From Liolophura sinensis (lineage: Eukaryota > Mollusca > Polyplacophora > Chitonida > Chitonidae): DNA of 64,000 bases. The notes beneath the pieces are model-generated. The model worked only from the letters and a program-made list of their open reading frames with translations. It had not been told where the DNA came from and ran no database searches. The position numbers were made by a program, and so were the translations under genes. This document shows positions 22,126-58,800 of this stretch, piece by piece (the stretch's first letter is position 1; each line of letters begins with the position of its first letter). The DNA lies in contig NC_088296.1 in NCBI RefSeq assembly GCF_032854445.1, forward strand, positions 1,488,001 to 1,552,000, written 5' to 3'.

Positions 22126-22225
22126 ATGGTGTTCGAGTCGATCGTGGTTGAGTTAATCAACCGTTATTTGGGGGATTTCGTGGAAAATCTAGACCGATCC
22201 CAGCTGAAACTCGGCATATGGGGAG
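22126..22225 (+). CDS. VPS13: VPS13 exon 1 (coding part)
   Basis: The start is ATG in a good context (CAACATGG). It encodes 33 codons plus one base, ending ...LKLGIWG before a GTGAGT donor. The Met-Val-(Phe/Leu)-Glu-Ser start and the GIW motif are hallmarks of VPS13 N-termini. It ends in phase 1, the phase exon 2 accepts. Confidence 0.93.
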
Positions 22226-34200: not shown

Positions 34201-37200
34201 CTGACATGGCAAGGCAGCCTGTGAGGCTCTAGACAAGGGGGTCTTGTCGTGGAGAATACCGAGCTGTCTGGGATGTACATGAATGTGGAAGATGTTTGAA
34301 GGTCTATAGGTGCGTGATCGGACTGTTACTGCAGTTATAAAACTTTATCCGATTTGTTATTGCCTTATCTGTCACATTATATTGACACAACAACAACAAG
34401 AAGATAATTCTACCGATGTACAAGTATGCGTGTAAAGTTTTGAAAGGAAACCTGCAAAAACACAATTAACCTTAGTGCACCACAAAAAAAAAGTCCCAGT
34501 ATGTTTGAAATTGCATTTTTAATATCTAAAAACGGAGGTATGGATTTGAATTGTATGTGCGTGTATAGATGATAATTTTCAGAAGGTAAACTTGAGGGGT
34601 TAAAAGAACTAACAACCTTTGAATGAAATCCACCATGCAGCATCAAAATGTCCTAGCGACTGAAAGACTATGAAACATCATAACCATGATTTGCTTATCA
34701 CTGGGTTTAGTGGTGACCTTGAAAATGTAATACCCGAATTCCTCAATCTATTCCCATACAGTAACTTTCAGAGCAATTTGTGCACATTTTAAATTTGTTT
34801 TTGGAAAGAAAACTACACTTTTGGGATTGGCAAGTGTCCAGGCTTCACAAAATGTCTAATTTTATCAGTCAGCAGAGAATAGTGCCTTCAGAATATGCTT
34901 GAATCAACATCTTGCAAACATGTGAAGAGGTTTAAGAATTACTGTATTCTGGATTCTGTCTGGTCTCCTACACTGATATGGCCTCCTTCACTGATCTGGG
35001 CTCCTACACAGATTTGTCCTCCTACACCGATTTGTCCTCCTACACCGATTTGTCCTACACGGATCTGGTCTCCAACACTGATATGGTCTCCTACACTGTT
35101 TTGTCCTACACTGGTCTGGTCTCCTACACTGATATGACCTCCTGCACTGATTTGTCCTACACTGATGTGGTCTCCAACACTGATCTGGTCTCCTACACTA
35201 ATCTGGTCTCCTACACTGATTTGTCCTACACTGATATTGTCTCCTACACTGATATGATCACTGGTCGTACACTGATATGGTCTCCTACACTGATTTGTCC
35301 TACACCGATATTGTCTCCTACACGGATTTGTCCTGCGCTGATATGGTCTCCTACACTGATATGATCACTGGTCGTACACTGATATGGTCGCTGTACATGC
35401 ATATCTGTGGAAAAGTTTGTGAGTGATTAGGGCAGGATTGAGGGGCAGCATGTATAGGGAATTTTGTATTTTAAAGATATTATTTTTACATTTTATTTGA
35501 AAATAATAATGAAATAAAAATTCCATTGAAAAGTCCAACAAACACTTGAGCACAGAGGGTCTGTCCAGTTACCTACATGTAAACCCTTGGCCTGGCAATG
35601 TGACCCATAATATTGACTGTGACTGAAAAATCACACCAAACAAGTCCAACAAACACTTGAGCACAGAGGGTCTGTCCAGTTACCTACATGTAAACCCTTG
35701 GCCTGGCCATGTGACCCATACTATTGACTGTGACTGAAAAATCACACCAAACAAGTCCATCAAACACTTGAGCTCAGAGGGTCTGTCCAGTTACCTACAT
35801 GTAAACCCTTGGCCTGGCCATGTGACCCATACTATTGACTGTGACTGAAAAATCACACCAAACAAGTCCAACAAACACTTGAGCACAGAGGGTCTGTCCA
35901 GTTACCTACATGTAAACCCTTGGCTTGGCAATGTGACCCATACTATTGACTGTGAGTGAAAAATCACACCAAACAAGTCCATCAAACACTTGAGCACAGA
36001 GGGTCTGTCCAGTTACCTACATGTAAACCCTTGGCCTGGCCATGTGACCCATACTATTGACTGTGACTGAAAAATCACACCAAACAAGTCCAACAAACAC
36101 TTGAGAACAGAGGGTCTGTTCAGTTACCTACATGTAAACCCTTGGCCTGGCAATGTGACCCATACTATTGACTGTGACTGAAAAATCACACCAAACAAGT
36201 CCAACAAACACTTGAGCACAGAGGGTCTGTCCAGTTACCTACATGTAAACCCTTGGCTTGGCAATGTGACCCATACTATTGACTGTGACTGAAAAATCAC
36301 ACCAAACAAGTCCAACAAAGACTTTAGAAATGATATTAGTGGAAAGGTCTCCAGCAACCTGCGGATGGTCGTGGGTTTCCCCCGGGCTCTGCCCGGTTTC
36401 CTTCCACCATAATGCTGGCCGCCGTTGTATTAGTGAAATATTCTTGAGTACGGCGTAAAACACCAATCAAATAAATAAATAAATTAGAAATCATATTGGT
36501 TGCTGTCTCTCTTGGCACTCAGCACTGAGAAGCTAGAATAAGGAAACAGGACTGATTGGCCTGGTGTCAGAAGATCATGACTGGGTGAGGTGGCGTCTGG
36601 TGAATTAGCGGCAGCACTTTGGCAGCATGGACTCACCCTGTTACAAGAAGACACAGTATATGTACACACACCTAATGACTCCTCATCATGTGACTGAAAT
36701 CATATGACCGCTAAGCCCCAAGCATACATACAATGATACATACATATAAAACAACAATGAAAAGAAGCATGCACTATGTGGTTCATGACCCTGCCTGGTG
36801 TCATCATCTCAGTTTGCTGTGTCTGGCAGGCCTTTGTATGGTGTACATGTTATGACTGCAGGCTACTCATCCATAGAGCTCACACACCACATACAATGTA
36901 CCTGTCACTTAGCTGTGCCTGGCATGATGGAATTGACCCAACAGTGGTGTATAGTTATAATCATCATAAAACTCTGCCCTGACTCACATCTCTAATAACA
37001 GAGTGTTTTCTGGGTCACTGACGCTCACCATCTGTCAGATATCCAGAGCCTACATGTAATATCCCCTCCCTCCCGTTCCATTCCCCACCCCTCCGGCACA
37101 AACACAAGCTTGTTTGTCGAAGCCTACATCTAATAGTACCTCTGTCGGGTTCTGATACATCTAAAAATTTGATCCTGTGATAAGAAAACATTAAACGTAA

Positions 37201-40200
37201 TTTTATTATTTGCTGTGCGAAAAATGGCATTATCAAGTTGTTAACCGAATTGTCCCCAAGTTGGGTTTATTAATTAATTTTGCCAAGCCAGCCAACAAGC
37301 CACTAGTCAGAGAGGTGCCAGTCCAGTTCTTGCTGATTGGGCTACACCTTAAAGTTGAAATGTAAATTTTCAACCACAAAGTGCCTTGATGTATTCGACC
37401 CCTTGACCTTACTGCCCCAGCATGTGCATCAGTTAAACAGTTATGCGAATACAAACCACTTAGTGTTTCATGGCACTCTTAAGAATATTGTATATTTTCA
37501 ACAGTGGCCAGACTGGGGAAGGGAGGAAACTCTGCAGAGCACTGTGGAAAACAACTGCTTTATGTTGTCCATGTACCTGATATGAACCTCTGGAACTTAT
37601 TTATTTACAGACCACTTTGGTGGCCTAATAGTGAGAGCATCCACTTCGATGTCTGCAGACCTGGGATCAAACCCGGGTCAGGTCATACCTTAGACTGTAA
37701 AAATGGTGCTTGCCGCTGCCTTGCTTGATGCCCAGCACTGGGTAGAGCAAGGAAACATAACTGGTTGGTGCAGCGTCAGTGTGATATGTGAGTGGGCTGG
37801 TGTCATGCCTGGTGTCTTCAGTATGATATGTGACTGGGCCAGTGTCATGCCTGGTGTCTTCAGCATGATATGTGACTGGGCCAGTGTCATGCCTGGTGTC
37901 TTCAGCATGATATGTGACTGGGCCAGTGTCATGCCTGGTGTCTTCAGCATGATATGTGACTGGGCCAGTGTCATGCCTGGTGTCTTCAACACAATACCTG
38001 GGCAGCACTTAGGCAGTATGCACTTGCCATACCACAAGAAGACACAATATATATGTACACACACCTAATGACTCTTCATGGTCACATGACTGAAAAGTTG
38101 TTAAGTACGATGTTAAACCCAAGCATGCATGCATATTGACTTACAGCATGACTAGGAGAAGCTGGATTTGAACTCGCGACCAGAGAACAAGCAGAATCTA
38201 AGGATTTTTCAGAGTGGCCTGATGGTGGCTGTATGAACTATGTAGCAAGTAAATATCATTAAATGTCAGATTGAGGGATAAAACTGTTACAGGGATTTGG
38301 TGTGTTAATGGGAAACATTCATCAGAACAGAGATGATAAGGAAACATTGGACTGAGAAAATCTTATTCCACAATAATATGTACTTTTAATCTGTATTAAT
38401 GTACAAGGTACGTAAGACTGTTTTATATTGGTTCAAATTTTTTCTCATGGTTTAATATTAATGCTCCACTTGCATGGTAGCTTTGTTGTTTCCCTCCATC
38501 ATACTATGTGTATTTCTTTCGGGGCCTTCTGTGGTTTGATGCTACCATAGCATCACCCATGTGACCAGGAGCCTCTAACCAATTACCTTGCTGTGAGTTC
38601 AAGTCCAGCTCATGCTGTCCTACTTTTATGTCATATGTGGGAAGGTCTTCCATCAACCTTGTGATGATCATGGGTTTCCACTGGGCTCTACCTGGTTTCC
38701 TCCAACCAGATTTATGCTAGCTACTTTCATATATTTAATGGTTTTCTCCCACCAGATAATGCTTCCTACCATCATATGTTTAATGGTTTCCTCCCACCAG
38801 ATAATGCTTGCTACCATCATGTATTTAATGGTTTCCTCCCACCAGATAATGCTTCCATTTTTTTAACAAGTCAGCAGTGTAGTACACATTTGGCGGATGT
38901 GTTAAAATAAGTGAATTCCATTTTTATCCTTCAGTGTGGTGTACAGTAAAATACATGTACCATTCAAACAAATGAAATACTACGAAAAAATGTGAACAGT
39001 TAACAAATAGATACTATTTCTGCTTTATATATGTGGAGGGTAGTTTAGACAAATGTGAAAATGTGGGTAGTCTTCAAACAATTAGTCAACACCTGGCCAC
39101 TTGGCCATAAAACCATTTGCTCTCAGCAGATAATAATTTTCTCAATTAGCAGAACTTATTTTAAATCATTGGGTTTGCCACGTACCCATTAAGCGGGCTT
39201 TGGTAGGGTCCCAGCCTGGTGGGTTCTGCGACCTTAAAATTCCGGACAGCTGTCATGCAGGAAATATTCTGGAGTACGGCTCATAACACCGACTGTTCAC
39301 GTTAATAAATGAATGTACATGTAGCCCTGCATGTGATTGTGCACTCAATACTGCAGTGTTTCATGACAGGAATTTTAGTCCAACAGGACTTTTAAGGCCG
39401 CTACTTGTTCAAATCGAGTTGTGAAGGAGTTTAGCAGTGACATTTTGCCTTACTCGTCACACGTGTAAATCTGAATGTATGGCCGATTGTGTGTGTATAG
39501 TGTATATTATGTTATCCTGTATCAGACAAAATACTCCACTTTTCATTGGCCAACAACACACCATCACACCATATATTCTCGAATCCTGCAGACACGGTCA
39601 AATGTGTTTGCTGAGTAGGTTATCTCCCATTGTGGGGTTGTGAATACAATAGTCACGCCGCTGACACTGAGTGAAACAATTCACCTACATGTACACTGTA
39701 TACGTGTACATCGATCTTCTGCACTGAACTGATAGGTCTCTGCAGGATAAATTCGTTACCTGGTTACTTAGTAATAGGATACACAGGTATATGGTGTCAG
39801 TAATCCTCCTATTGGGTGAAGCATCACATTGAGCCAGGCGACACCATATATTTGAGTATCCTATCAATGAGTCATCATGCCTTGGGTCAGGCATCACATT
39901 GAGGGAGGTGACACCATATATTTGAGTATCCTATCGCTGAGTCATCATGCCTTGGGTCAGGCATCACATTGAGGGAGGTGACACCATATATTTGAGTATC
40001 CTATCAATGAGTCATCATGCCTTGGGTCAGGCATCACATTGAGGGAGGTGACACCATATATTTGAGTATCCTATCGCTGAGTCATCATGCCTTGGGTCAG
40101 GCATCACATTGAGGGAGGTGACACCATATATTTGAGTATCCTATCAATGAGTCATCATGCCTTGGGTCAGGCATCACATTGAGGGAGGTGACACCATATA

Positions 40201-43200
40201 TTTGAGTATCCTATCGCTGAGTCATCATGCCTTGGGTCAGGCATCACATTGAGGGAGGTGACACCATATATTTGAGTATCCTATCAATGAGTCATCATGC
40301 CTTGGGTCAGGCATCACATTGAGGGAGGTGACACCATATATTTGAGTATCCTATCGCTGAGTCATCATGCCTTGGGTCAGGCATCACATTGAGGGAGGTG
40401 ACACCATATATTTGAGTATCCTATCAATGAGTCATCATGCCTTGGGTCAGGCATCACATTGAGGGAGGTGACACCATATATTTGAGTATTCTATAGCTGA
40501 GTCACCATGCCTTGGGTCAGGCATCACATTGAGGGAGGTGACACCATATATTTGAGTATCCTATCAATGAGTCACCATGCCTTGGGTCAGGCATCACATT
40601 GAGGGAGGTGACACCATATATTTGAGTATCCTATCGCTGAGTCATCATGCCTTGGGTCAGGCATCACATTGAGGGAGGTGACACCATATATTTGAGTATC
40701 CTATCAATGAGTCATCATGCCTTGGGTCAGGCATCACATTGAGGGAGGTGACACCATATATTTGAGTATCCTATCAATGAGTCATCATGCCTTGGGTCAG
40801 GCATCACATTGAGGGAGGTGACACCATATATTTGAGTATCCTATCGCTGAGTCATCATGCCTTGGGTCAGGCATCACATTGAGGGAGGTGACACCATATA
40901 TTTGAGTATTCTATCAATGAGTCATCATGCCTTGGGTCAGGCGTCACATTGAGGGAGGTGACACCATATATTTGAGTATTCTATAGCTGAGTCACCATGC
41001 CTTGGGTCAGGCATCACATTGAGGGAGGTGACACCATATATTTGAGTATCCTATCAATGAGTCATCATGCCTTGGGTCAGGCATCACATTGAGGGAGTTG
41101 ACATCATATATTTGAGTATCCTATAGCTGAGTCACCATGCCTTGGGTCAGGCATCACATTGAGGGAGGTGACACCATATATTTGAGTATCCTATCAATGA
41201 GTCATCATGCCTTGGGTCAGGCATCACATTGAGGAAGGTGACACCATATATTTGAGTATCCTATCGCTGAGTCATCATGCCTTGGGTCAGGCATCACATT
41301 GAGGGAGGTGACACCATATATTTGAGTATCCTATAGCTGAGTCACCATGCCTTGGGTCAGGCATCACATTGAGGGAGGTGACACCATATATTTGAATATC
41401 CTATCGCTGAGTCATCATGCCTTGGGTCAGGCATCACATTGAGGGAGGCGACACCATATATTTGAGTATCCTATCAATGAGTCATCATGCCTTGGGTCAG
41501 GCGTCACATTGAGCCAGGCGACACCATATATTTGCGTATCCTATCACTGAGTCACCATGGACATGTAACTAATAACGATGCCAGTTAGTTAGTAGATTGG
41601 ATGTGTAACCATGGTGATATGTGCATTCAGCTTGTTTTTATTTGTTTCAGGTGATGTTGTTCTGAAAAACTTGGATTTAAAGGAAAGTGCTTTGGTAAGT
41701 ACAACTACTTATACTGCGCATACTGAGACTTACACTTACAGTACATGTATGGAGAGTGTGTGGAGGTGGGCACAGGAATTCTGGTCCGTCCCTGTACAAC
41801 ACTTACCATACATGTATTAAGTGGGTGTGGACGTGGGCACAGGAATTCTGGTCCATCCCTGCACAACACTTACCGTACATATATGGAGAGTGTGTGGACG
41901 TGGGCACAGGAATTCCGGTCCATCCCTGCACAACACTTACCGTACATGTACGGAGTGTGTGTGGACACAGGAATTCTTGTCCGTCCCTGCACAACACTTA
42001 CCGTACATGTATGGAGTGTGTGTGGACATGGGCACAGGAATTCTGGTCTGTCCCTGCACAACACTTACCGTATATGTATTGAGTGGGTGTGGACATGGGC
42101 ACAGGAATTCTGGTCTGTCCCTGCACAACACTTACCATACATGTATTAAGTGGGTGTGGACGTGGGCACAGGAATTCTGGTCTGTCCCTGCACAACACTA
42201 ACTGTACATGTATGGAGTGTGTGTGGACGTGGACACAGGATTTGTGGTCCGTCCCTGTACAACACTTACCGTACATGTATGGAGTGTGTGTGGACGTGGG
42301 CACAGGATTTCTGGTCTGTCCCTGTACAACACTTACCGTACATGTATGGTGTGCGTGTGGACGTGGGCACAGGATTTCTGGTCCATCCCTGCACAACACT
42401 TACCGTACATGTATGGTGTGTGTGTGGACGTGGGCACAGGATTTCTGGTCCGTCCCTGCACAACACTTACCGTACATGTATGGTGTGTGTGTGGACGTGG
42501 GCACAGGAATTCTGGTCCGTCCCTGCACAACACTTACCGTACATGTATGGTGTGTGTGTGGACGTGGGCCACAGGAATTCTGGGTCCGTCCCTGCACAAC
42601 ACTAACTGTACATGTATGGAGTGTGTGTGGACGTGGTTACAGGAATTCTGGTCCGTCCCTGTACAACACTTACAGTACATGTATGGTGTGTGTGTGGACG
42701 TGGGCACAGGATTTCTCGTCCGTCCCTGCACAACACTTACCGTACATGTATGGAGTGTGTGTGGACGTGGGCCACAGGAATTCTGGTCCGTCCCTGCACA
42801 ACACTTACCGTACATGTATGGTGTGTGTGTGGACATGGGCACAGGAATTCTGGTCCGTCCCTGCACAACACTTACCGTACATGTATGGAGTGTGTGTGGG
42901 ACGTGGGCACAGGATTTCTGGTCCATCCCTGCACAACACTTATCATACATGTATGGAGTGTGTGTGGACGTGGACACAGGAATTCTTGTTTGTCCCTGCA
43001 CAACACTAACTGTACATGTATTGAGTGGGTGTGGACGTGGGCACAGGAATTCTAGTCCCTCCCTGTACAACACTTACAGTACATGCATGGAGTGTGTGTG
43101 GACGTGGGCACAGGAATTCTTGTCCGTCCCTGCACAACACTAACTGTACATGTATGGAGTGTGTGTGGACGTGGGCACAGGAATTCTGGTCCGTCCCTGT

Positions 43201-46200
43201 ACAACACTTACCGTACATGTATGGTGTGTGTGTGGACGTGGGCACAGGAATTCTTGTCCGTCCTGCACAACACTAACTGTACATGTATGGAGTGTGTGTG
43301 GACACAGGAATTCTGGTCCGTCCGTGCACAACACTTACCGTACATGTATGGAGTGTGTGTGGATGTAGGCACAGGAATTCTGGTCTGTCCGTGCACAACA
43401 CTTACCGTACATGTATGGAGTGTGTGTGGACACAGGAATTCTTGTCCGTCCCTGTACAACACTTACCGTACATGTGTGGAGTGTGTGTGGACGTGGGCAC
43501 AGGAATTCTGGTCCATCCCTGCACAACACTAACTGTACATGTATGGAGTGTGTGTGGACGTGGACACAGGAATTCTGGTCCGTCCCTGCACAACACTTAC
43601 TGTACATGTATGGAGTGTGTGTGGATGTGGGCACAGGAATTCTTGTCCGTCCCTGCACAAACACTTACCGTACATGTATGGAGTGTGTGTGGACACAGGA
43701 ATTCTGGTCCGTCCCTGTACAACACTTACCGTACATGTGTGGAGTGTGTGTGGACGTGGGCACAGGAATTCTGGTCCGTCCCTGCACAACACTAACTGTA
43801 CATGTATGGAGTGTGTGTGGATGTGGACACAGGAATTCTTGTCCGTCCCTGCACAACACTTACCGTACATGTATTGAGTGTGTGTGGATGTGGGCACAGG
43901 AATTCTGGTCCGTCCCTGTACAACACTTACCGTACATGTATGGTGTGTGTGTGGACGTGGGCACAGGAATTCTTGTTCGTCCCTGCACAACACTAACTGT
44001 ACATGTATGGAGTGTGTGTGGACGTGGTTACAGGAATTCTGGTCCGTCCCTGTACAACACTTACAGTACATTGTATGGAGTGTGTGTGGACACAGGAATT
44101 CTGGTCCGTCCCTGTACAACACTTACCGTACATGTGTGGAGTGTGTGTGGACGTGGGCACAGGAATTCTGGTCCGTCCCTGCACAACACTAACTGTACAT
44201 GTATGGAGTGTGTGTGGATGTGGACACAGGAATTCTGGTCCATCCCTGTACAACACTTGCCGTACATGTATGGAGTGTGTGTGGACGTGGGCACAGGAAT
44301 CCTGGTCCGTCCCTGTACAACACTTACCGTACATGTATGGAGTGTGTGTGGACGTGGGCACAGGAATCCTGGTCCGTCCCTGTACAACAGTTACTGTGCA
44401 TGTACATGTATGGAGTGTGTGTGGACGTGGGCACAGGAATTCTGGTCCGTCCCTGTACAACGGTTACCGTACATGTATTGAGTGTGTGTGGACGTGGGCA
44501 CAGGAATCCTGGTCCGTCCCTGTACAACAGTTACTGTACATGTATGGAGTGTGTGTGGACGTGGGCACAGGAATTCTGGTCCGTCCCTGCACAACACTTA
44601 CCGTACATGTATGGAGTGTGTGTGGACGTGGTTACAGGAATTCTGGTCCGTCCCTGCACAACACTAACTGTACATGTATGGAGTGTGTGTGGACGTGGAC
44701 ACAGGATTTCTGGTCTGTCCCTGCACAACACTTACCGTATATGTATGGAGTGTGTGTGGACGTGGGCACAGGAATTCTGGTCCGTCCTGCACAACACTTA
44801 CCGTATATGTATGGAGTGTGTGTGGACGTGGGCACAGGAATTCTGGTCCGTCCTTGAACAACACTTACCGTACATGTATGGAGTGTGTGTGGACGTGGGC
44901 ACAGGAATTCTGGTCCGTCCATGTACAACAGTTACCGTACATGTATGGAGTGTGTGTGGAGGTGGGCACAGGAATTCTGGTCCGTCCCTGCACAACACTA
45001 ACTGTACATGTATGGAGTGTGTGTGGACATGGACACAGGATTTCTGGTCCGTCCCTGCACAACACTTACCGTACATGATGGAGTGTGTGTGGACACAGGA
45101 ATTCTGGTCCGTCCCTGCACAACACTAACTGTACATGTATGGAGTGTGTGTGGACATGAGCACAGGAATTCTGGTCTGTCCCTGCACAACACTTACCGTA
45201 TATGTATGGAGTATGTGTGGACACAGGAACTCTGGTCCATCCCTGAACGACACTTACCGTACATGTATGGAGTGTGTGTGGATTGGACACAGGAATTCTG
45301 GTCCGTCCCTGCACAACACTTATCGTACATGTATGGAGTGTGTGTGGACACAGGAATTCTGGTCCATCCCTTGCACAACACTTATCATACATGTATGGAG
45401 TGTGTGTGGACGTGGGCACAGGAATTCTGATCCGTCCCTGCACAACACTTACCGTACATGTATGGAGTGTGTATGGACGTGGGGCACAGGAATTCTGGTC
45501 CATCCTTGAACAACACTTACCGTACATGTATGGAGTGTTTGTGGACGTGGGCACAGGAATTCTGGTCCGTCCCTGCACAACACTTAGCGTACATGTATGG
45601 AGTGTGTATGGACGTGGGCACAGGAATTCTGGTCCGTCCCTGCACAACACTTACCGTACATGTATGGAGTGTGTGTGGACACAGGAACTCTGGTCCATCC
45701 TTGAACAACACTTACCGTACATGTATGGAGTGTGTGTGGATTGGACACAGGAATTCTGGTCCGTCCCTGCACAACACTTACGGTACATGTATGGAGTGTG
45801 TGTGGACGTGGGCACAGGAATTCTGGTCCGTCCCTGCACAACACTAACTGTACATGTATGGAGTGTGTGTGGACGTGGGCACAGGAATTTCGGTCCATCC
45901 CTGTACAACACTAACTGTACATGTATGGAGTGTGTATGGACGTGGGCACAGGAATTCTGGTCCATCCTTGAACAACACTTACCGTACATGTATGGAGTGT
46001 GTGTGGATGTGGGCACAGGAATTCTGGTCCGTCCCTGCACAACACTTACCGTACATGTATGGTGTGTGTGTGGACATGGGCACAGGAATTCTTGTTCGTC
46101 CCTGCACAACACTAACTGTACATGTATGGAGTGTGTGTGGACGTGGTTACAGGAATTCTGGTCCGTCCCTGTACAACGCTTACCGTACATGCATGGAGTG

Positions 46201-49200: not shown

Positions 49201-49697
49201 TATTACAGTAGAATTGTACGCTTTGTACACAAACATGCCTTGTTTTGTACGTGCCTTGTTTTGTACAAAAACGTGCCTTGTTTTGTACAAAAACGTGCCT
49301 TATTTTGTACACAAACGTGCCTTGTTTTGTACGCAAACGTGCCTTGTTTTGTACACAAACGTGCCTTGTTTTTTACAAAAACGTGCCTTGGTTTGTACAC
49401 AAACATGCCTTGGTTTGTACACAACTGTGGCTTGTTTTGTACACAAATGTGCCTTGTTTTGTACACAAAAGTGCCTTGTTTTGTACACAAACGTGCCTTG
49501 TTTTGTACACAACTGTGCCTTGTTTTGTACATAATCGTGCCTTGTTTTGTACACAATCGTGCCTTGTTTTGTACTCAACTGTGCCTTGTTTCCCCCACAG
49601 CAAACCTCACACTGAAGATTCCGTGGAAGAATCTGTACACTGAGCCTGTGGTTGCGTCTATAGATGGGCTGTACGCCCTGGGCTATCCCCAATATCG
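22126..49697 (+). CDS. VPS13: VPS13 (VPS13A/C type) N-terminal coding exons 1-4, gene incomplete
   Basis: Four exons encode the conserved chorein N-terminus: 22126-22225, 41651-41694, 48346-48389, 49601-49697. The first exon begins [18 protein letters not shown]; the rest aligns with animal VPS13A and VPS13C through [26 protein letters not shown] and [14 protein letters not shown]13 proteins are giant bridge-like lipid-transfer proteins at organelle contact sites; the chorein end forms the cap of the lipid channel. The family is over 3,000 residues long, so nearly all of the gene lies beyond the window or in unplaced sequence. Exon 3 as written carries one extra G relative to the phase left by exon 2. 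Exon 2 recurs at 55,751-55,794 after an assembly gap. VPS13A versus VPS13C orthology cannot be decided from about 95 residues, though several positions read closer to VPS13C. Confidence 0.87.
22226..23166 (+). other. VPS13 intron 1, first part
   Basis: This stretch is unique intron sequence with one inverted SINE-1 tail fragment at 22,768-22,845. No exon is recognised. Confidence 0.6.
22768..22845 (-). mobile_element. SINE-1 tail fragment
   Basis: TTGTTTGATTAGTGTTTTAC, then CTCAGGAATATTTCACTTCT and ATGACAGCAATCAGCATT, is the inverted SINE-1 3' block. Confidence 0.75.
23167..23401. repeat. 25-bp minisatellite, about 9 units
   Basis: The units carry GGGAGTGTGAACCACTGCGT followed by CATAT. One unit has a short insertion (TGCATGTATGTCATAT). 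Confidence 0.93.
23602..23876. repeat. 21-bp minisatellite, about 13 units
   Basis: The units are GATGGCAGGGCTCTGCAGTG plus A, with variants at the CAGTG/CACTG/TAATG positions. The 21-bp period keeps open frames on both strands (108 and 119 codons); these are repeat artefacts. Confidence 0.93.
24133..24298. repeat. 42-bp minisatellite, 4 units
   Basis: The units share TGCATTCATAATTTGGTTAT and TTTTTATGTAGAGCC; three are nearly identical. Confidence 0.9.
24299..25515 (+). other. VPS13 intron 1, unique stretch
   Basis: No exon is accepted here. A 98-nt segment at 25,008-25,105 between CACAG and GTGAGA is open, but it matches no VPS13 region and would shift the frame between exons 1 and 2. Confidence 0.5.
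25516..26074. repeat. 18-bp minisatellite, about 31 units
   Basis: The units are CAGTGTAACTGGAGGGAA with variants TACCTAGAGGGAA and TACTCGGGGGAA, the latter 17 bp. The three types recur in runs, a fine record of unit spreading. Confidence 0.94.
26205..26702. repeat. 44-bp minisatellite, about 11 units
   Basis: The units share CCCAAACTAATTATGCCCAC and TTTCTTTCCTTGTTTGGGG, with 43-bp forms. The open frames across it cycle through frames and are artefacts. Confidence 0.93.
26995..27582. repeat. 45-bp minisatellite, about 13 units
   Basis: The units contain GGCCTGTTTGTGGGGTCTAC, AGTGTGACCCACATGTACAT and ATTCA. The period is a multiple of three and stop-free, which opens frames of 218-265 codons on both strands; their composition follows the DNA repeat, with no domain. 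Confidence 0.94.
27583..28430 (+). other. VPS13 intron 1, with two RFX-like sites
   Basis: This is unique sequence. At 28,201-28,240 a 20-bp segment containing GTTGTCATGGAAAC is present twice in tandem; each copy is close to the RFX X-box palindrome. Confidence 0.45.
28436..28982. repeat. 22-bp minisatellite, about 25 units
   Basis: The units are TCTCCTCAGAACATGTGGAG plus TT, with variants ATATATGGAG, ATATATTGAG and CCTGTGGAG. Pairs of variants alternate in the middle, indicating 44- and 66-bp higher-order copying. Confidence 0.94.
29338..30325. repeat. 67-bp minisatellite with nested 15-bp and 37-bp starts
   Basis: The main unit of 67 bp (AAGTGATTTAGGGTACTTGT, ATCTGTAACCCCGAGAAAAA, GGTAAAGTGCTCACTGAAGA, GATCAAT) is repeated about 13 times. 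Its left edge has CTTGTATCTGTAACC repeated four times (15 bp), and near 29,540-29,600 there are short units lacking the AAAAAGGTAAAG...GATCAAT part. It is unrelated in sequence to the 67-bp array of intron 2. Confidence 0.94.
30326..32330 (+). other. VPS13 intron 1, unique stretch
   Basis: No exon or RNA gene is recognised. A palindromic X-box-like site GTTACCATGGTTAC lies at 31,357-31,370, and a CCCCCTCC / CACACA simple-sequence run at about 31,630-31,670. Confidence 0.45.
32331..33350. repeat. 39-bp minisatellite with composite units
   Basis: The units share GAATTGTATGACTCCTATAT and AACATTACAATGCACTGTA. A second type carries AATGTAAAACTTCATTGCA. A block of about 230 bp (about 32,640-32,760 and 32,850-32,990, including TTATTGCACCACTCCTATAC) is itself repeated. 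Roughly 25 units in all. The 39-bp period explains the open frames on both strands. Confidence 0.92.
33351..34957 (+). other. VPS13 intron 1, unique stretch
   Basis: No recognised exon or repeat. An open frame of 124 codons at 33,698-34,072 has no family signature and no splice context fitting VPS13. Confidence 0.45.
34958..35392. repeat. 18/15-bp minisatellite
   Basis: The units are CTCCTACACTGATATGGT or, shortened, CCTACACTGATTTGT, in mixed order (about 25 units). A longer phrase with GATCACTGGTCGTACACTGA occurs twice. Confidence 0.92.
35535..36318. repeat. 111-bp tandem repeat, 7 units (copy A)
   Basis: The units begin CCAACAAACACTTGAGCACA and include GAGGGTCTGTCCAGTTACCT, ACATGTAAACCCTTGGCCTG and GACTGTGACTGAAAAATCAC. 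Starts are 111 bp apart. The same array with at least 12 units lies to the right of the assembly gap. Confidence 0.95.
36327..36484 (+). mobile_element. SINE-1 3' half (copy A)
   Basis: It joins the last 111-bp unit directly and shows GGAAAGGTCTCCAGCAACCT, GCGGATGGTCGTGGGTTTCC, TAATGCTGGCCGCCGTTGTA, AATATTCTTGAGTACGGCGT, AAACACCAATCAAATAAATA. It is the clearest copy of the conserved tail. Confidence 0.9.
36490..36740 (+). mobile_element. SINE-2 copy, 5' truncated (copy A)
   Basis: It shows GGCACTCAGCACTGAGAAGC, GGAAACAGGACTGATTGGCC, TGGTGTCAGAAGATCATGAC, AGCACTTTGGCAGCATGGAC, ACAAGAAGACACAGTATATG, TACACACACCTAATGACTCC, ending GCTAAGCCCCAAGCATACAT. Confidence 0.85.
37605..38135 (+). mobile_element. 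SINE-2, full-length with internal 42-bp expansion (copy A)
   Basis: A tRNA-like head (GTGGCCTAATAGTGAGAGC, then a B-box-like GGATCAAACCCGGGTC) is followed by CTTGCTTGATGCCCAGCACT, GGAAACATAACTGGTTGGTG, five 42-bp units at about 37,759-37,985 (GTGTCATGCCTGGTGTCTTC, ATGATATGTGACTGGGCCA), then ACAAGAAGACACAATATATA and the tail TTAAGTACGATGTTAAACCC. The 42-bp units open 113-124-codon frames on both strands; these are not genes. Confidence 0.88.
38562..38858 (+). mobile_element. SINE-1 with internal 45-bp expansion (copy A)
   Basis: It shows GTGACCAGGAGCCTCTAACC, GAGTTCAAGTCCAGCTCATG, TGGGAAGGTCTTCCATCAAC, then about three 45-bp units around CCTCCCACCAGATAATGCTT. The units come from the SINE core GTTTCCTCCCACCATAATGC. 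The usual tail is missing. Confidence 0.85.
39195..39312 (+). mobile_element. Decayed SINE-1-like tail (copy A)
   Basis: GAAATATTCTGGAGTACGGC, TCATAACACCGACTGTTCAC and AATAAATGAATG resemble the SINE-1 tail block but are strongly diverged. Confidence 0.5.
39817..41558. repeat. 70-bp minisatellite, about 25 units (copy A)
   Basis: The units contain GGCATCACATTGAGGGAGGT, GACACCATATATTTGAGTAT and ATGAGTCATCATGCCTTGGG. Two main types (CCTATCAATGAG and CCTATCGCTGAG) alternate over long stretches, so the working unit is often a 140-bp dimer. At the corresponding place in the block after the gap (about 55,590-55,660) there is only one unit. The array ends about 90 bp before VPS13 exon 2. Confidence 0.96.
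41651..41694 (+). CDS. VPS13: VPS13 exon 2 (copy A)
   Basis: A 44-nt exon between TTTGTTTCAG and GTAAGT. With the single base from exon 1 it reads [15 protein letters not shown], matching the second strand of the VPS13 chorein region. It leaves phase 0. Confidence 0.93.
41740..48153. repeat. 67-bp satellite-like array filling VPS13 intron 2 (copy A)
   Basis: About 96-98 units follow the donor of exon 2 after some 45 bp. A unit consists of GTACATGTATGGAGTGTGTG, TGGACGTGGGCACAGGAATT, CTGGTCCGTCCCTGCACAAC, ACTTACC (67 bp); a 61-bp form lacks GTGGGC or its equivalent. Nearly every unit has one EcoRI site (GAATTC). 67 is not a multiple of three, and the consensus is stop-free in several frames on both strands, so open frames of up to 565 codons appear (45,274-46,971). 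These are artefacts: frames on both strands are equally open and no start, splice or domain context supports them. Confidence 0.97.
48154..48345 (+). other. VPS13 intron 2, 3' end
   Basis: The unique sequence between the array and exon 3 ends in a long T-run and TTTTTTTTCAG, a strong acceptor. Confidence 0.75.
48346..48389 (+). CDS. VPS13: VPS13 exon 3, one base out of phase
   Basis: The acceptor is TTTTTTTTCAG and the donor GTGAGT. From 48,347 it reads [14 protein letters not shown] plus one base, matching the family. The canonical acceptor, however, leaves an extra G at 48,346: exon 2 ends in phase 0, so the spliced frame would read GGA-TGA and stop. The exon would be 43 nt without the extra base. 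The reading of the exon is secure; the base count at the GGG run (48,345-48,347) is suspect. Confidence 0.85.
48428..48513. repeat. 28-bp repeat, 3 units
   Basis: The units are TTAACTAGCCCTTAGCTAAG followed by TGCGCGTG, with small changes. It lies in VPS13 intron 3 directly after the exon 3 donor region. Confidence 0.85.
48514..48929 (+). other. VPS13 intron 3, unique stretch
   Basis: AT-rich intron sequence; nothing recognised. Confidence 0.5.
48930..49170 (+). mobile_element. SINE-2 copy, 3' truncated
   Basis: It shows a head-like GGGGGCGGTAGATCCAGGG, then GGGTCACACCTAAGACTTAA, TTCCTTGCTTGGTGTTCAGC, GTATCAGTATAATGGCTCGG and GAAGCAGCACTAGATAAA; the match weakens before the tail. Confidence 0.72.
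49226..49590. repeat. 22-bp minisatellite reaching the exon 4 acceptor
   Basis: About 17 units of GCCTTGTTTTGTACACAAAC plus GT with single changes. The last unit, GCCTTGTTTCCCCCACAG, is the pyrimidine tract and 3' splice site of exon 4. Open frames on both strands (up to 159 codons) follow the repeat. Confidence 0.94.
49601..49697 (+). CDS. VPS13: VPS13 exon 4
   Basis: The acceptor is TTTCCCCCACAG and the donor GTGAGT. The exon reads (A)[18 protein letters not shown]... to ...YPQYR, leaving phase 2. The IPWKNLY motif is nearly invariant in VPS13 proteins, which makes this the most secure exon after exon 1. Confidence 0.94.
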
Positions 49698-50555
49698 GTG
49701 AGTTTGTGCTGGCAAGTTTAGTTGTATTGTACTTGCTTTGATATTTAACACGATTTTTGATGAATGTTAAAGAATACATGAAAAAGTAAAGTACAATAAA
49801 ACAAAGAATGTGGCCCTAAGGAAAATTAAGGAAGGTATTCCAATGCATTCAGAAAATTTTTTCTTTGTTGGGGCATATTTTATATTTCTTAATAACCCCT
49901 CTATTTAATGAGTAATTTTCTTCAGTTCTCAAGAATATTGAATATATTGTTGTCCTCAGGGACCATATTAAAAATGCAGTGATATTGATGGGTTTTCAAT
50001 GAAGTGAGTCCCTGGGACCCAGAGGCGGCTAAATGAGTGGGTCCCATTGGAAATGAGTGGGTCCTGAATAAAATGTTTTTCTTGGAGTTAAACTTCTGGT
50101 CGATTTAATAATTTTTAATAAAATAAATTAAATAATGCTTTTGGATGACTCAGACTATGATCAGGAGATCTCTACTGCGCCTGATAAATGCCTATAAGGG
50201 CAATATCTAGGAGAAAACAGTTAAGCTTCTGTTCCCGAACTGGAAACATTGTTTTAGTCACTGAATTTATGTTTAGATTGCTGCATGTCCTTTGCAATTC
50301 ATTCTTCATATTGTACCTGGAACTGGTACTGATTTTCTAGAATAATACTGTAAGGATTTATAACTAGATATAAAATATAGAAACTGTTCCGTTATCTACC
50401 ATTATACAGTGTGTTCATTTCGAAATATTTCTAAGAAGCAGTCTTGTATTTATAAGATAAAAGTTTATAAACAATACAAAACACGTAAATGGCATAGGTC
50501 TAGTAAATCAGCAGTATGTGAGTTCTCACATTAAACAGTGTTCAACAACAACATG
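49698..50555 (+). other. VPS13 intron 4, start, up to the gap
   Basis: This is AT-rich unique sequence up to the Ns. Exon 5 of VPS13 is not seen before the gap. Confidence 0.6.
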
Positions 50556-50755
50556 NNNNNNNNNNNNNNNNNNNNNNNNNNNNNNNNNNNNNNNNNNNNN
50601 NNNNNNNNNNNNNNNNNNNNNNNNNNNNNNNNNNNNNNNNNNNNNNNNNNNNNNNNNNNNNNNNNNNNNNNNNNNNNNNNNNNNNNNNNNNNNNNNNNNN
50701 NNNNNNNNNNNNNNNNNNNNNNNNNNNNNNNNNNNNNNNNNNNNNNNNNNNNNNN
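50556..50755. other. Assembly gap of exactly 200 N
   Basis: The gap is 200 undetermined bases, a round size typical of scaffolding placeholders. The sequence on its right does not continue VPS13 intron 4 but restarts in a copy of the 111-bp array found at 35.5 kb. Confidence 0.98.
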
Positions 50756-52092
50756 GTCCAACAAACACTTGAGCACAGAGGGTCTGTCCAGTTACCTGCA
50801 TGTAAACCCTTGGCCTGGCCATGTGACCCATACTATGGACTGTGACTGAAAAATCACACCAAACAAGTCCAACAAACACTTGAGCACAGAGGGTCTGTCC
50901 AGTTACCTGCATGTAAACCCATGGCCTGGCATTGTGACCCATACTATTGACTGTGACTGAAAAATCACACCAAACAAGTCCATCAAACACTTGAGGACAG
51001 AGGGTCTGTCCAGTTACCTACATGTAAACCCATGGCCTGGCAATGTGACCCATAATATTGACTGTGACTGAAAAATCACACCAAACAAGTCCAACAAACA
51101 CTTGAGCACAGAGGGTCTGTCCAGTTACCTACATGTAAACCCATGGCCTGGCAATGTGACCCATACTATTGACTGTGACTGAAAAATCACACCAAACAAG
51201 TCCAACAAACACTTGAGCACAGAGGGTCTGTCCAGTTACCTACATGTAAACCCATGGCCTGGCAATGTGACCCATAATATTGACTGTGACTGAAAAATCA
51301 CACCAAACAAGTCCAACAAACACTTGAGCACAGAGGGTCTGTCCAGTTACCTACATGTAAACCCATGGCCTGGCAATGTGACCCATACTATTGACTGTGA
51401 CTGAAAAATCACACCAAACAAGTCCAACAAAGACTTGAGCACAGAGGGTCTGTCCAGTTACCTACATGTAAACCCTTGGCCTGGCCATGTGACCCATACT
51501 ATTGACTGTGACTGAAAAATCACACCAAACAAGTCCAACAAACACTTGAGCACAGAGGGTCTGTCCAGTTACCTACATGTAAACCCTTGGCCTGGCTATG
51601 TGACCCATAATATTGACTGTGACTGAAAAATCACACCAAACAAGTCCAACAAACACTTGAGCACAGAGGGTCTGTCCAGTTACCTACATGTAAACCCTTG
51701 GCCTGGCCATGTGACCCATACTATTGACTGTGACTGAAAAATCACACCAGACAAGTCCAACAAACACTTGAGCACAGAGGGTCTGTCCAGTTGTAAACCC
51801 TTGGCCTGGCAATGTGACCCATACTATTGACTGTGACTGAAAAATCACACCAAACAAGTCCAACAAACACTTGAGCACAGAGGGTCTGTCCAGTTACCTG
51901 CATGTAAACCCTTGGCCTGGCCATGTGACCCATACTATGGACTGTGACTGAAAAATCACACCAAACAAGTCCATCAAACACTTGAGCACAGAGGGTCTGT
52001 CCAGTTACCTACATGTAAACCCATGGCCTGGCAATGTGACCTATACTATTGACTGTGACTGAAAAATCACACCAAACAAGTCCAACAAAGAC
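50756..52092. repeat. 111-bp tandem repeat, at least 12 units (copy B)
   Basis: It has the same unit as at 35,535-36,318 but at least five more copies, with the left edge lost in the gap. One unit (near 51,790) lacks ACCTACAT. More units read AAACCCATGGCC here than in copy A. Confidence 0.95.
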
Positions 52093-52106
52093 TATAGAAA
52101 TGATAT

Positions 52107-52254
52107 TAGTGGAAAGGTCTCCAGCAACCTGCGGATGGTCGTGGGTTTCCCCAGTGCTCTGCCCGGTTTCCTCCCACCATAATGCTGGCCGCCATCGTAT
52201 AAGTGAAATATTCTTGAGTACGGCGTAAAACACCAATCAAATAAATAAATAAAT
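52107..52254 (+). mobile_element. SINE-1 3' half (copy B)
   Basis: This is the counterpart of 36,327-36,484 with several substitutions (for example GCCGCCATCGTATAAG against GCCGCCGTTGTATTAG). Confidence 0.9.
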
Positions 52255-52269
52255 TAGAAATGATATTGG

Positions 52270-52516
52270 TTGCTGTCTCTCTTGGCACTCAGCACTGAGA
52301 AGCTAGAATAAGGAAACAGGACTGGTTGGCCTGGTGTCAGAAGATCATGACTGGGTGAGGTGGTGTCTGGTGAATTAGCGGCAGCACTTTGGCGGCATGG
52401 ACTCACCCTGCTACAAGAAGACACAGTATATGTACACACACCTGATGACTCCTCATCATGTGACTGAAATCATATGACTGCTAAGCCCCAAGCATACATA
52501 CAATGATACATACATA
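52270..52516 (+). mobile_element. SINE-2, 5' truncated (copy B)
   Basis: This is the counterpart of 36,490-36,740, differing at scattered positions. Confidence 0.85.
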
Positions 52517-53384
52517 TAAAACAACAATGAAAAGAAGCATGCACTATGTGGTTCATGACCCTGCCTGGTGTCATCATCTCAGTTTGCTGTGTCTGGCAGG
52601 CCTTTGTTTGTATCGTGTACATGTTATGACTGCGGGCTATTCATCCATAGAGCTCACACACCACATACAATGTACCTGTCACTTAGCTGTGTCTGGCATG
52701 ATGGAATTGACCCAACAGTTGTGTATAGTTATAATCATCATAAAGCTCTGCCCTGACTCACATCCCTAATAACAGAGTGTTTTCTGGGTCACTGACGCTC
52801 ACCATCTGTCAGATATCCAGAGCCTACATGTAATATCCCCTCCCTCCCGTTCCATTCCCCACCCCTCGGCACAAACACAAGCTTGTTTGTCGAAGCCTAC
52901 ATCTAATAGTACCTCTGTCGAGTCCTGATACATCTAAAAATTTGATCCGTTGATCTTAATGAAGAAAACATTAAACGTAATTTTATTATTTGCTGTGCGA
53001 AAAATGGCATTATCAAGTTGTTAACCGAATTATCCCCAAGTTGGGTTTATTAATTAATTTTGCCAAGCCAGCCAACAAGCCACTAGTCAGAGAGGTGCCA
53101 GTCCAGTTCTTGCTGATTGGGCTACACCTTAAAGTTGAAATGTAAATTTTCAACCACAAAGTGCCTTGATGTATTCGACCCCTTGACCTTACTGCCCCAG
53201 CATGTGCATCAGTTAAACAATTATGCGAATACAAACCACTTAGTGTTTCATGGCACACTTAAGAATATTGTATATTTTCAACAGTGGCCAGACTGGGGAA
53301 GGGAGGAAACTCTGCAGAGCACTGTGGAAAACAACTGCTTTATGTTGTCCATGTACCTGATATGAACCTCTGGAACTTATTTAT

Positions 53385-53915
53385 TTACAGACCACTTTGG
53401 TGGCCTAATAGTGAGAGCATCCACTTCGATGTCTGCAGACCTGGGATCAAACCCGGGTCAGGTCATACCTTAGACTGTAAAAATGGTGCTTGCCGCTGCC
53501 TTGCTTGATGCCCAGCACTGGGTAGAGCAAGGAAACATAACTGGTTGGTGCAGCGTCAGTGTGATATGTGAGTGGGCTGGTGTCATGCCTGGTGTCTTCA
53601 GTATGATATGTGACTGGGCCAGTGTCATGCCTGGTGTCTTCAGCATGATATGTGACTGGGCCAGTGTCATGCCTGGTGTCTTCAGCATGATATGTGACTG
53701 GGCCAGTGTCATGCCTGGTGTCTTCAGCATGATATGTGACTGGGCCAGTGTCATGCCTGGTGTCTTCAACACAATACCTGGGCAGCACTTAGGCAGTATG
53801 CACTTGCCATACCACAAGAAGACACAATATATATGTACACACACCTAATGACTCTTCATGGTCACATGACTGAAAAGTTGTTAAGTACGATGTTAAACCC
53901 AAGCACGCATGCATA
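53385..53915 (+). mobile_element. SINE-2, full-length with internal 42-bp expansion (copy B)
   Basis: This is the counterpart of 37,605-38,135 at an offset of 15,780 bp, with the same five 42-bp units and almost no differences. Confidence 0.88.
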
Positions 53916-54341
53916 TTGACTTACAGCATGACTAGGAGAAGCTGGATTTGAACTCGCGACCAGAGAACAAGCAGAATCTAAGGATTTTTCAGAGTGGCCT
54001 GATGGTGGCTGTATGAACTATGTAGCAAGTAAATATCATTAAATGTCAGATTGAGGGATAAAACTGTTACAGGGATTTGGTGTGTTAATGGGAAACATTC
54101 ATCAGAACAGAGATGATAAGGAAACATTGGACTGAGAAAATCTTATTCCACAATAATATGTACTTTTAATCTGTATTAATGTACAAGGTACGTAAGACTG
54201 TTTTATATTGGTTCAAATTTTTTCTCATGGTTTAATATTAATGCTCCACTTGCATGGTAGCTTTGTTGTTTCCCTCCATCATACTATGTGTATTTCTTTC
54301 GGGGCCTTCTGTGGTTTGATGCTACCATAGCATCACCCATG

Positions 54342-54638
54342 TGACCAGGAGCCTCTAACCAATTACCTTGCTGTGAGTTCAAGTCCAGCTCATGCTGTCC
54401 TACTTTTATGTCATATGTGGGAAGGTCTTCCATCAACCTTGTGATGATCATGGGTTTCCACTGGGCTCTACCTGGTTTCCTCCAACCAGATTTATGCTAG
54501 CTACTTTCATATATTTAATGGTTTTCTCCCACCAGATAATGCTTCCTACCATCATATGTTTAATGGTTTCCTCCCACCAGATAATGCTTGCTACCATCAT
54601 GTATTTAATGGTTTCCTCCCACCAGATAATGCTTCCAT
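54342..54638 (+). mobile_element. SINE-1 with internal 45-bp expansion (copy B)
   Basis: This is the counterpart of 38,562-38,858, the same structure and unit number. Confidence 0.85.
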
Positions 54639-54974
54639 TTTTTTAACAAGTCAGCAGTGTAGTACACATTTGGCGGATGTGTTAAAATAAGTGAATTCCA
54701 TTTTTATCCTTCAGTGTGGTGTACAGTAAAATACATGTACCATTCAAACAAATGAAATACTACGAAAAAATGTGAACAGTTAACAAATAGATACTATTTC
54801 TGCTTTATATATGTGGAGGGTAGTTTAGACAAATGTGAAAATGTGGGTAGTCTTCAAACAATTAGTCAACACCTGGCCACTTGGCCATAAAACCATTTGC
54901 TCTCAGCAGATAATAATTTTCTCAATTAGCAGAACTTATTTTAAATCATTGGGTTTGCCACGTACCCATTAAGC

Positions 54975-55092
54975 GGGCTTTGGTAGGGTCCCAGCCTGGT
55001 GGGTTCTGCGACCTTAAAATTCCGGACAGCTGTCATGCAGGAAATATTCTGGAGTACGGCTCATAACACCGACTGTTCACGTTAATAAATGA
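54975..55092 (+). mobile_element. Decayed SINE-1-like tail (copy B)
   Basis: This is the counterpart of 39,195-39,312, nearly identical. Confidence 0.5.
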
Positions 55093-55589
55093 ATGTACAT
55101 GTAGCCCTGCATGTGATTGTGCACTCAGTACTGCAGTGTTTCATGACAGGAATTTTAGTCCAACAGGACTTTTAAGGCCGCTACTTGTTCAAATCGAGTT
55201 GTGAAGGAGTTTAGCAGTGACATTTTGCCTTACTCGTCACACGTGTAAATCTGAATGTATGGCCGATTGTGTGTGTATAGTGTATATTATGTTATCCTGT
55301 ATCAGACAAAATACTCCACTTTTCATTGGCCAACAACACACCATCACACCATATATTCTCGAATCCTGCAGACATGGTCAAATGTGTCTGCTGAGTAGGT
55401 TATCTCCCTTTGTGGGGTTGTGAATACAATAGTCACGCCGCTGACACTGAGTGAAACGATTCACCTACATGTACACTGTATACGTGTACATCGATCTTCT
55501 GCACTGAACTGATAGGTCTCTGCAGGATAAATTCGTTACCTGGTTACTTAGTGATAGGATACACAGGTATATGGTGTCAGTAATCCTCC

Positions 55590-55660
55590 TATTGGGTGAG
55601 GCATCACATTGAGCGAGGCGACACCATATATTTGCGTATTCTATCACTGAGTCACCATGC
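55590..55660. repeat. Single 70-bp unit (copy B)
   Basis: GGCATCACATTGAGCGAGGC, GACACCATATATTTGCGTAT and ATCACTGAGTCACCATG occur once, where copy A carries about 25 tandem units. The sequence resembles the edge units of the long array. Confidence 0.85.
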
Positions 55661-55750
55661 ACATCTAACTAATAACGATGCCACTTAGTTAGTAGATTGG
55701 ATGTGTAACCATGGTGATATGTGCATTCAGCTTGTTTTTATTTGTTTCAG

Positions 55751-55794
55751 GTGATGTTGTTCTGAAAAACTTGGATTTAAAGGAAAGTGCTTTG
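55751..55794 (+). CDS. VPS13: VPS13 exon 2, second copy (copy B)
   Basis: Its 44 nt, acceptor and donor are identical to 41,651-41,694. In the order exon 4, gap, exon 2 it cannot be part of the same transcript as a normal exon: it is phase 1 in and phase 0 out, whereas exon 4 leaves phase 2. It is either the other haplotype, a misplaced contig or a duplicated exon. Confidence 0.85.
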
Positions 55795-55837
55795 GTAAGT
55801 ACAACTACTTATACTGCGCATACTGAGACTTACACTT

Positions 55838-58800
55838 ACCGTACATATATGGAGAGTGTGTGGAAGTGGGCACAGGAATTCTGGTCCGTCCCTGTACAAC
55901 ACTTACCGTACATGTGTGGAGTGTGTGTGGACGTGGGCACAGGAATTCTGGTCCATCCCTGCACAACACTTACCGTACATGTATGGAGTGTTTGTGGACG
56001 TGGACACAGGAATTCTGGTCCATCCCTGCACAACACTTACCATACATGTATGGAGTGTGTGTGGATTTGGACACAGGAATTCTGGTCCGTCCCTGCACAA
56101 CACTTACCGTACATGTATGGAGTGTGTGTGGACGTGGACACAGGAATTCTGGTCCATCTCTGTACAACACTTACCGTACATGTATGGAGTGTGTGTGGAC
56201 ACAGGAATTCTGGTGCATCCCTGCACAACACTTACAGTACATGTATGGAGTGTGTGTGGATTTGGACACAGGAATTCTGGTCCGTCCCTGCACAACACTT
56301 ACCGTACATATATGGAGTGTGTGTGGACGTGGGCACAGGAATTCTGGTCCATCCCTGCACAACACTTACCGTACATGTGTGGAGTGTGTGTGGACACAGG
56401 AATTCTGGTGCATCCCTGCACAACACTTACAGTACATGTATGGAGTGTGTGTGGACACAGGAATTCTGGTCCATCCCTGCACAACACTTACCGTACATGT
56501 ATGGAGTGTGTGTGGGCACAGGAATTCTCGTCCATCCCTGCACAACACTTACCATACATGTATGGAGTGTGTGTGGATTTGGACACAGGAATTCTGGTCC
56601 GTCCCTGCACAACACTTACCGTACATATATGGAGTGTGTGTGGACGTGGGCACAGGAATTCTGGTCCATCCCTGCACAACACTTACCGTACATGAATGGA
56701 GTGTGTGTGGACGTGGACACAGGAATTCTGGTCCATCCCTGCACAACACTTACCGTACATGTATGGAGTGTGTGTGGATTTGGACACAGGAATTCTGGTC
56801 CGTCCCTGCACAACACTTACCGTACATATATGGAGTGTGTGTGGACGTGGGCACAGGAATTCTGGTCCATCCCTGCACAACACTTACCGTACATATATGG
56901 AGAGTGTGTGGACGTGGGCACAGGAATTCTGGTCCATCCCTGCACAACACTTACAGTACATGTATGGAGTGTGTGTGGATTTGGACACAGGAATTCTGGT
57001 CCGTCCCTGCACAACACTTACTGTACATATATGGAGTGTGTGTGGACGTGGGCACAGGAATTCTGGTCCATCCCTGCACAACACTTACCGTACATGTATG
57101 GAGTGTGTGTGGACGTGGACACAGGAATTCTGGTCCATCCCTGCACAACACTTACCGTACATGTATGGAGTGTGTGTGGACGTGGGCACAGGAATTCTGG
57201 TCCATCCCTGCACAACACTTACCGTACATGTATGGAGTGTGTGTGGACACAGGAATTCTGGTCCATCCCTGCACAACACTTACCGTACATGTATGGAGTG
57301 TGTGTGGAAGTGGACACAGGAATTCTGGTCCGTCCGTGCAGAACACTTACCATACATGTATGGAGTGTGTGTGGACGTGGGCACAGGAATTCTGGTCCGT
57401 CCGTGCACAACACTTATCGTACATGCATGGAGTGTGTGTGGACTTGGGCATAGGAACTCTGGTCCATCCCTGAACGACACTTACCGTACATGTATGGAGT
57501 GTGTGTGTGGACGTGGGCACAGGAATTCTGGTCCGTCCCTGCACAACACTTACCGTACATGCATGGAGTGTGTGTGGACTTGGGCATAGGAACTCTGGTC
57601 CATCCCTGAACGACACTTACCGTACATGTATGGAGTGTGTGTGGACGTAGGCACAGGAATCCTGGTCCATCCCTGCACAACACTTACCGTACATGTATGG
57701 AGTATGTGTGGACGTGGGCACAGGAATCCTGGTCCATCCCTGCACAACACTTACCGTACATGTATGGAGTGTGTGTGGACTTGGGCATAGGAACTCTGGT
57801 CCATCCCTGAACGACACTTACCGTACATGTATGGAGTGTGTGTGGACGTGGGCACAGGAATCCTGGTCCGTCCCTGCACAACACTTACCGTACATGCATG
57901 GAGTGTGTGTGGACTTGGGCATAGGAACTCTGGTCCATCCCTGAACGACACCGTACATGTATGGAGTGTGTGTGGACGTGGGCACAGGAATTCTGGTCCG
58001 TCCCTGCACAACACTTACCGTACATGCATGGAGTGTGTGTGGACGTGGGCACAGGAGTTCTGGTCCATCCTTGAACAACACTTACCGTACATGTATGGTG
58101 TGTGTGTGGATGTGGATACAGGAATTCTGGTCCGTCCCTGCACAACACTTACCGTACATGTATGGAGTGTGTGTGGACACAGGAATTCTGGTCCATCCAT
58201 GCACAACACTTACCGTACATGTATGGAGTGTGTGTGGACGTGGGCACAGGAATTCTGGTCCGTCCGTGCACAACACTTACCGTACATGCATGGAGTGTGT
58301 GTGGACTTGGGCATAGGAACTCTGGTCCATCCCTGAACGACACTTACCGTACATGTATGGAGTGTGTATGGACACAGGAATTCTGGTCTGTCCCTACACA
58401 ACACTTACCGTACATGTATGGAGTGTGTGTGGACACAGGAATTCTGGTCCATCCCTGCACAACACTTACCGTACATGCATGGAGTGTGTGTGGACTTGGG
58501 CATAGGAACTCTGGTCCATCCTTGAACAACACTTACCGTACATGTATGGAGTGTGTGTGGACGTGGGCACAGGAATTCTGGTCCATCCTTGAAGAACACT
58601 TACCGTACACGTATGGGTGTGTGTGGACGTAGACACAGGAATTCTGGTCCATCCCTGCACAACACTTACCGTTCATGTATGGAGTGTTTGTGGATGTGGG
58701 CACAGGAATTCTGGTCCGTCCCTGCACAACACTTACCGTACATGTATGGAGTGTGTGTGGACGTGTGCACAGGAATTCTGGTCCATCCCTGCACAACACT

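Follow-up and report, generated by a model that had tools for sequence, protein, structure and literature searches.

Within the 64,000-nt stretch of Liolophura sinensis DNA analysed here (the window), exon 2 of a VPS13 gene and about 6 kb of flanking intron are present twice, on either side of a 200-N assembly gap. Two alleles of a single place, retained in the assembly as overlapping contig ends or as a stray haplotig, offer the best explanation for this apparent tandem duplication, with a probability that we put at roughly 0.87, and the repeat most probably arose during assembly rather than reflecting a new gene structure. Of these two forms, we favour overlapping contig ends, in which the right-hand copy would continue into the rest of the gene, over a stray haplotig placed beside its homologue by a factor of about two. 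If left in place, a false duplication at this position, together with the overlong exon 3 described below, would lead to a wrong VPS13 model, in which exon 4 is followed by a spurious exon 2 and exon 3 carries a frameshift; the duplication would also register as a false structural variant.

Extent and divergence of the repeated block

The window contains a single run of N, located at 50,556-50,755 and exactly 200 nt long, which looks like a fixed mark set at a join; the part of a report on one hifiasm and YaHS assembly that bears on this point gives 54 gaps of 200 Ns each (PMC12134992). The repeated region extends over 35,531-41,731 to the left of the gap (copy A) and 51,309-55,831 to its right (copy B), with the elements in the same order. 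Alignment of 35,531-39,880 with 51,309-55,660 yields an identity of 98.12% over 4,361 columns, with 62 mismatches and 6 gap openings. The match picks up again past a 70-bp minisatellite, at 41,492 in A and 55,592 in B, and continues via exon 2 into a 67-bp array. The alignment reproduces the offsets between the copies given in the initial annotation, which are 15,780 bp and then 14,100 bp beyond the 70-bp array; the offset changes because this array is 25 units long in A but has just one unit in B. The presence of exon 2 on both sides of the gap, and its identity in the two copies, had also been proposed earlier and were confirmed here: all 44 nt are the same, and the exon sits within 155 bp (41,585-41,739 in A) that are identical throughout and include 111 surrounding bases.

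From the first base of copy B to the end of the window, each element has a counterpart in copy A. In the other direction, the tail of the left contig (48,151-50,555) returned no match at E 1e-3 in the right contig up to the window end, and the sequence left of 35,531 matched the right contig in nine pieces only, of 50 to 198 bp, which are the dispersed repeats described below. Exons 3 (48,346-48,389) and 4 (49,601-49,697) are located between the two copies, as previously stated. No junction leading from the end of one copy to the start of the next is sequenced within the window, where the gap is the sole site that could contain one; copy B extends past position 64,000 on its right side.

The intron sequence between the arrays, composed of non-array and SINE-like segments with short runs of 42-bp and 45-bp units, occupies 36,325-39,811 in copy A and 52,094-55,591 in copy B. 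The copies differ at 37 places in the 3,487 bp of this block in A (1.06%), and these differences form a mosaic along its length. The divergence is 3.0% in the leftmost and densest part (28 differences in 928 bp, 36,325-37,252), 0.9% in the following 225 bp (2 differences), 0.05% in a nearly identical part (1 difference in 1,870 bp, 37,478-39,347) and 1.3% in the last 464 bp (6 differences). A stretch of such length with one difference was obtained in 0 of 20,000 random placements, which agrees with the earlier remark that differences crowd at the left and are rare in 37.2-39.5 kb. When the comparison is begun at 36,200, and thus covers a slightly longer stretch, it contains 38 substitutions, 26 of them transitions, as opposed to 3 real indels of 4, 1 and 7 bp, only one of which affects a single base; a fourth listed indel is a ragged alignment start and was left out. 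We read the differences between A and B as true polymorphism and not as read error, given the predominance of substitutions, their block structure and the 25 units facing a single one in the 70-bp array.

Minisatellites and dispersed repeats

Three minisatellites, delineated with TRF, punctuate the repeated block, and all three differ in length between the copies. The 111-bp minisatellite has 7.2 units in copy A (35,531-36,324) and at least 12.1 units in copy B (50,756-52,093), where it is cut by the gap and starts with the very next base. The 70-bp minisatellite of copy A (39,812-41,559) consists of 25 units, the first 24 of which are each exactly 70 bp long, and its place in copy B is taken by one unit (55,592-55,661). 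Unit comparison revealed that this lone unit carries the left-hand mark of A's first unit together with the right-hand marks of A's last. Since it combines the marks of both end units, copy B could represent either the state before the array expanded or a deletion by exchange between end units, and a contrast of 25 units with one that bears such combined marks goes beyond read error. Many of the 70-bp units in A alternate between two types.

The 67-bp minisatellite comprises 97 units in copy A (41,732-48,150) and at least 124.5 units in copy B (55,832-64,000), where it runs off the window. Only two exact matches of at least 100 bp connect the arrays of A and B, compared with 7 within A and 43 within B, although many of the latter stem from an internal duplication in B. 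This duplication relates 55,832-58,693 to 61,135-64,000 at a distance of 5,303-5,307 bp and is nearly exact; from 55,993 on, the two parts differ by one substitution and one 4-bp indel over about 2.7 kb, and the duplication reaches the window end. It may reflect a recent unequal exchange or an error in the assembly of the array. The scarcity of shared matches indicates that the unit order of the arrays has turned over while the flank of exon 2 stayed identical. The window is rich in minisatellites generally: of the 20 arrays that were analysed to the left of 41,732, which span 172-41,559, 15 fall in intron 1 of VPS13.

The SINE-like pieces of the block have further partial copies at other places in the window, and are therefore regarded as dispersed repeats; in both copies, the runs of 42-bp and 45-bp units lie inside or beside them. 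ARAGORN (tRNA) and Rfam scans of the window gave no matches, so that the SINE-like pieces are left without a type, and no paper turned up in a literature search with 16 bases from the SINE tail. The tail has what we take to be a molluscan look.

VPS13 exons and the tail of the left contig

All four exons assigned to VPS13 lie on the forward strand. The coding part of exon 1 (100 nt, 22,126-22,225) matches the N-terminus of VPS13C (tblastn, E 4e-14) and is followed by a GTGAGT donor. Exon 2 (41,651-41,694 in copy A, 55,751-55,794 in copy B) has an AG acceptor, a GTAAGT donor and a VPS13-like reading. Exon 3 (44 nt) is delimited by canonical splice signals, and exon 4 is 97 nt long. When each is translated in its own fitting frame, exons 1-4 score 4.6e-48 and 164.3 bits with the Pfam family VPS13_N (PF12624; cut-off 80), and the resulting protein matches PDB chains of VPS13C (2.4e-35) and VPS13A (1.1e-32). 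The four exons thus encode the N-terminus of a VPS13 protein, corresponding to that of the bridge-like lipid transfer proteins VPS13A and VPS13C. A search of the literature on VPS13 and duplication returned no VPS13 among the matches listed. Elsewhere in the window, an open frame on the reverse strand (7,099-7,863) encodes RING and B-box zinc fingers and is TRIM-like.

As written, exons 1-4 do not form an open frame. Owing to one surplus base in exon 3, plain splicing runs into a stop immediately behind exon 2; this base could result from a poor consensus near the contig end or belong to a true null allele. Human VPS13A provides a useful reference, as the relevant part of one report places a 43-bp exon 3 behind the acceptor of c.145 (variant c.145-2A>G) (PMC12411190). 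The boundary of intron 2 is the same in the chiton gene, after coding position 144 (100 + 44), while exon 3 measures 44 nt here and 43 in human (PMC12411190). Four VPS13 alignments end at residue 92 or 93 of 94, just short of the end of exon 4. This exon presumably ends in a phase different from that of human VPS13A, and may have either a different intron phase or a second consensus fault; we did not count it as a second frameshift.

The 67-bp array of copy A, which precedes exon 3, is also unusual in its single-base indels. Wrap-around alignment of both arrays to one consensus identified 24 such indels of 16 types in the 6,419 bp of A and 3 of 2 types in the 8,169 bp of B, an excess of about tenfold per kb (Fisher P 1.7e-6 by events and 1.3e-4 by types), with equal mismatch rates of 4.8% in A and 4.9% in B. 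They supersede a per-unit count from which units deviating from the period by more than 20 bp had been omitted (4 of 92 units in A and 1 of 123 in B). Four types recur, together making up 12 of the 24 events in A, and could represent genuine variants. Another 12 types occur a single time each, and nine of these alter the length of a one-base run according to our reading of their contexts. The first indel in the array is at 42,569, and the 70-bp array just upstream contains none in 1,748 bp.

Control arrays gave a mixed picture. Single-base indels are absent from 15 of 26 arrays, yet among the 20 arrays situated to the left of 41,732 there are 6 that exceed the rate of A's 67-bp array (3.74 per kb), with values from 5.9 to 34.5 per kb, and these 6 are located far from any gap. 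One control array (2,145-2,578) has six indel types in six events, while some other high-rate arrays contain recurrent types. Within the same tail, a 22-bp array (49,222-49,591) has no single-base indel in 370 bp, where about 1.4 would be expected. G-runs in 48,151-50,555, whose length was taken as an indicator of poor consensus, show no overall increase in length. The mixed controls weaken the argument from sequence quality and leave it suggestive at most: the indels and the surplus base of exon 3 hint that the left contig, in its final ~8 kb from ~42.5 kb on, may rest on few reads. This possible thin support of the contig tail is an addition to what the initial annotation had observed.

Origin of the second copy

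An uncollapsed second haplotype had been named as the likeliest cause of the repeat. Our analysis supports this view through the position of the gap, the colinearity of the copies, the substitution-type divergence, the minisatellite lengths and the lack of a sequenced junction. The haplotype reading is favoured because substitutions dominate the differences and form a mosaic, as they do between haplotypes. The individual would carry two VPS13 alleles over the end of intron 1, exon 2 and intron 2. The mean divergence of these alleles would be about 1% outside the arrays, and their minisatellites would differ greatly in length. One contig would traverse this place on the first allele and end at 50,555; the next, from 50,756, would start within this place too, but on the other allele. 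The scaffolder would have placed both side by side with its fixed 200-N mark. The differing minisatellite arrays are a likely reason for the assembly to have broken here.

A real tandem duplication within VPS13 would comprise exon 2, or perhaps exons 2-4, together with the intron minisatellites, and would have its junction inside the gap. We consider it improbable. An artefact is the likelier cause because a true duplication would have to possess a junction, and none has been sequenced in the window, where only the gap could hide one. The two copies of exon 2 are intact and identical and have good splice sites, but the resulting exon order would be 1-2-3-4-2', and the addition of the 44-nt exon 2 alone would shift the frame. 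One possible route is unequal exchange within the 111-bp or the 67-bp array, since arrays near the edges could promote it, and a recent duplication spanning at least 2.7 kb is already present in the 67-bp array of B. The almost complete lack of shared unit order between the 67-bp arrays speaks against the allelic reading to the extent that it is possible for paralogues too. The mosaic of divergence could likewise reflect gene conversion between paralogues; 3% divergence beside nearly identical stretches would, however, require such conversion in addition to the duplication itself. The corresponding full scenario, a recent duplication that is real in the living animal, is situated between hypervariable minisatellites and has been partly homogenised by gene conversion, has equally long odds against it.

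Still more improbable, in our estimate, is a false duplication within one haplotype (homotype), in which error-bearing reads would have entered the assembly two times and sequencing errors would account for the differences. Such an origin would fit the raised number of single-base indels in the 67-bp array of copy A as well as the additional base of exon 3. The non-array differences, however, are 38 substitutions and one single-base indel, arranged in blocks, and 25 as opposed to one 70-bp units with unit-specific variants are not read error.

If the copies are two alleles, as we favour, the combination of very different intron minisatellites with nearly identical flanks is probably real, and would represent an ordinary but clean case of fast array turnover. 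Alleles of hypervariable minisatellites have close flanks and differ in length and unit order. The two VPS13 copies resemble them in their close flanks, differing copy length and differing unit order, and differ from them in that just two copies are available, whose allelic status we infer. A literature search on minisatellites produced nothing on point among the matches listed.

The closest known parallel is the heterotype false duplication described by Ko et al. 2022 (PMC9516828). The marks of false duplication named in the portion of that study relevant here are a gap between copies on the same scaffold, half depth, discordant pairs and single-copy k-mers; falsely duplicated places are given there as richer in heterozygosity and in erroneous k-mers, and one figure legend presents a gene whose false duplicate lies next to it, in a display that marks assembly gaps (PMC9516828). 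In the chiton sequence, the 200 N at 50,556-50,755 separate two copies on one scaffold, and the differences between them are, as judged from the sequence alone, true polymorphism and not read error. The VPS13 repeat therefore shares with the heterotype cases, as far as they are set out in that portion, allele-like copies on the same scaffold, a gap between them and the repetition of part of a gene. It differs in being known from the assembled sequence only, and in being dominated by intron minisatellites whose lengths are very unequal.
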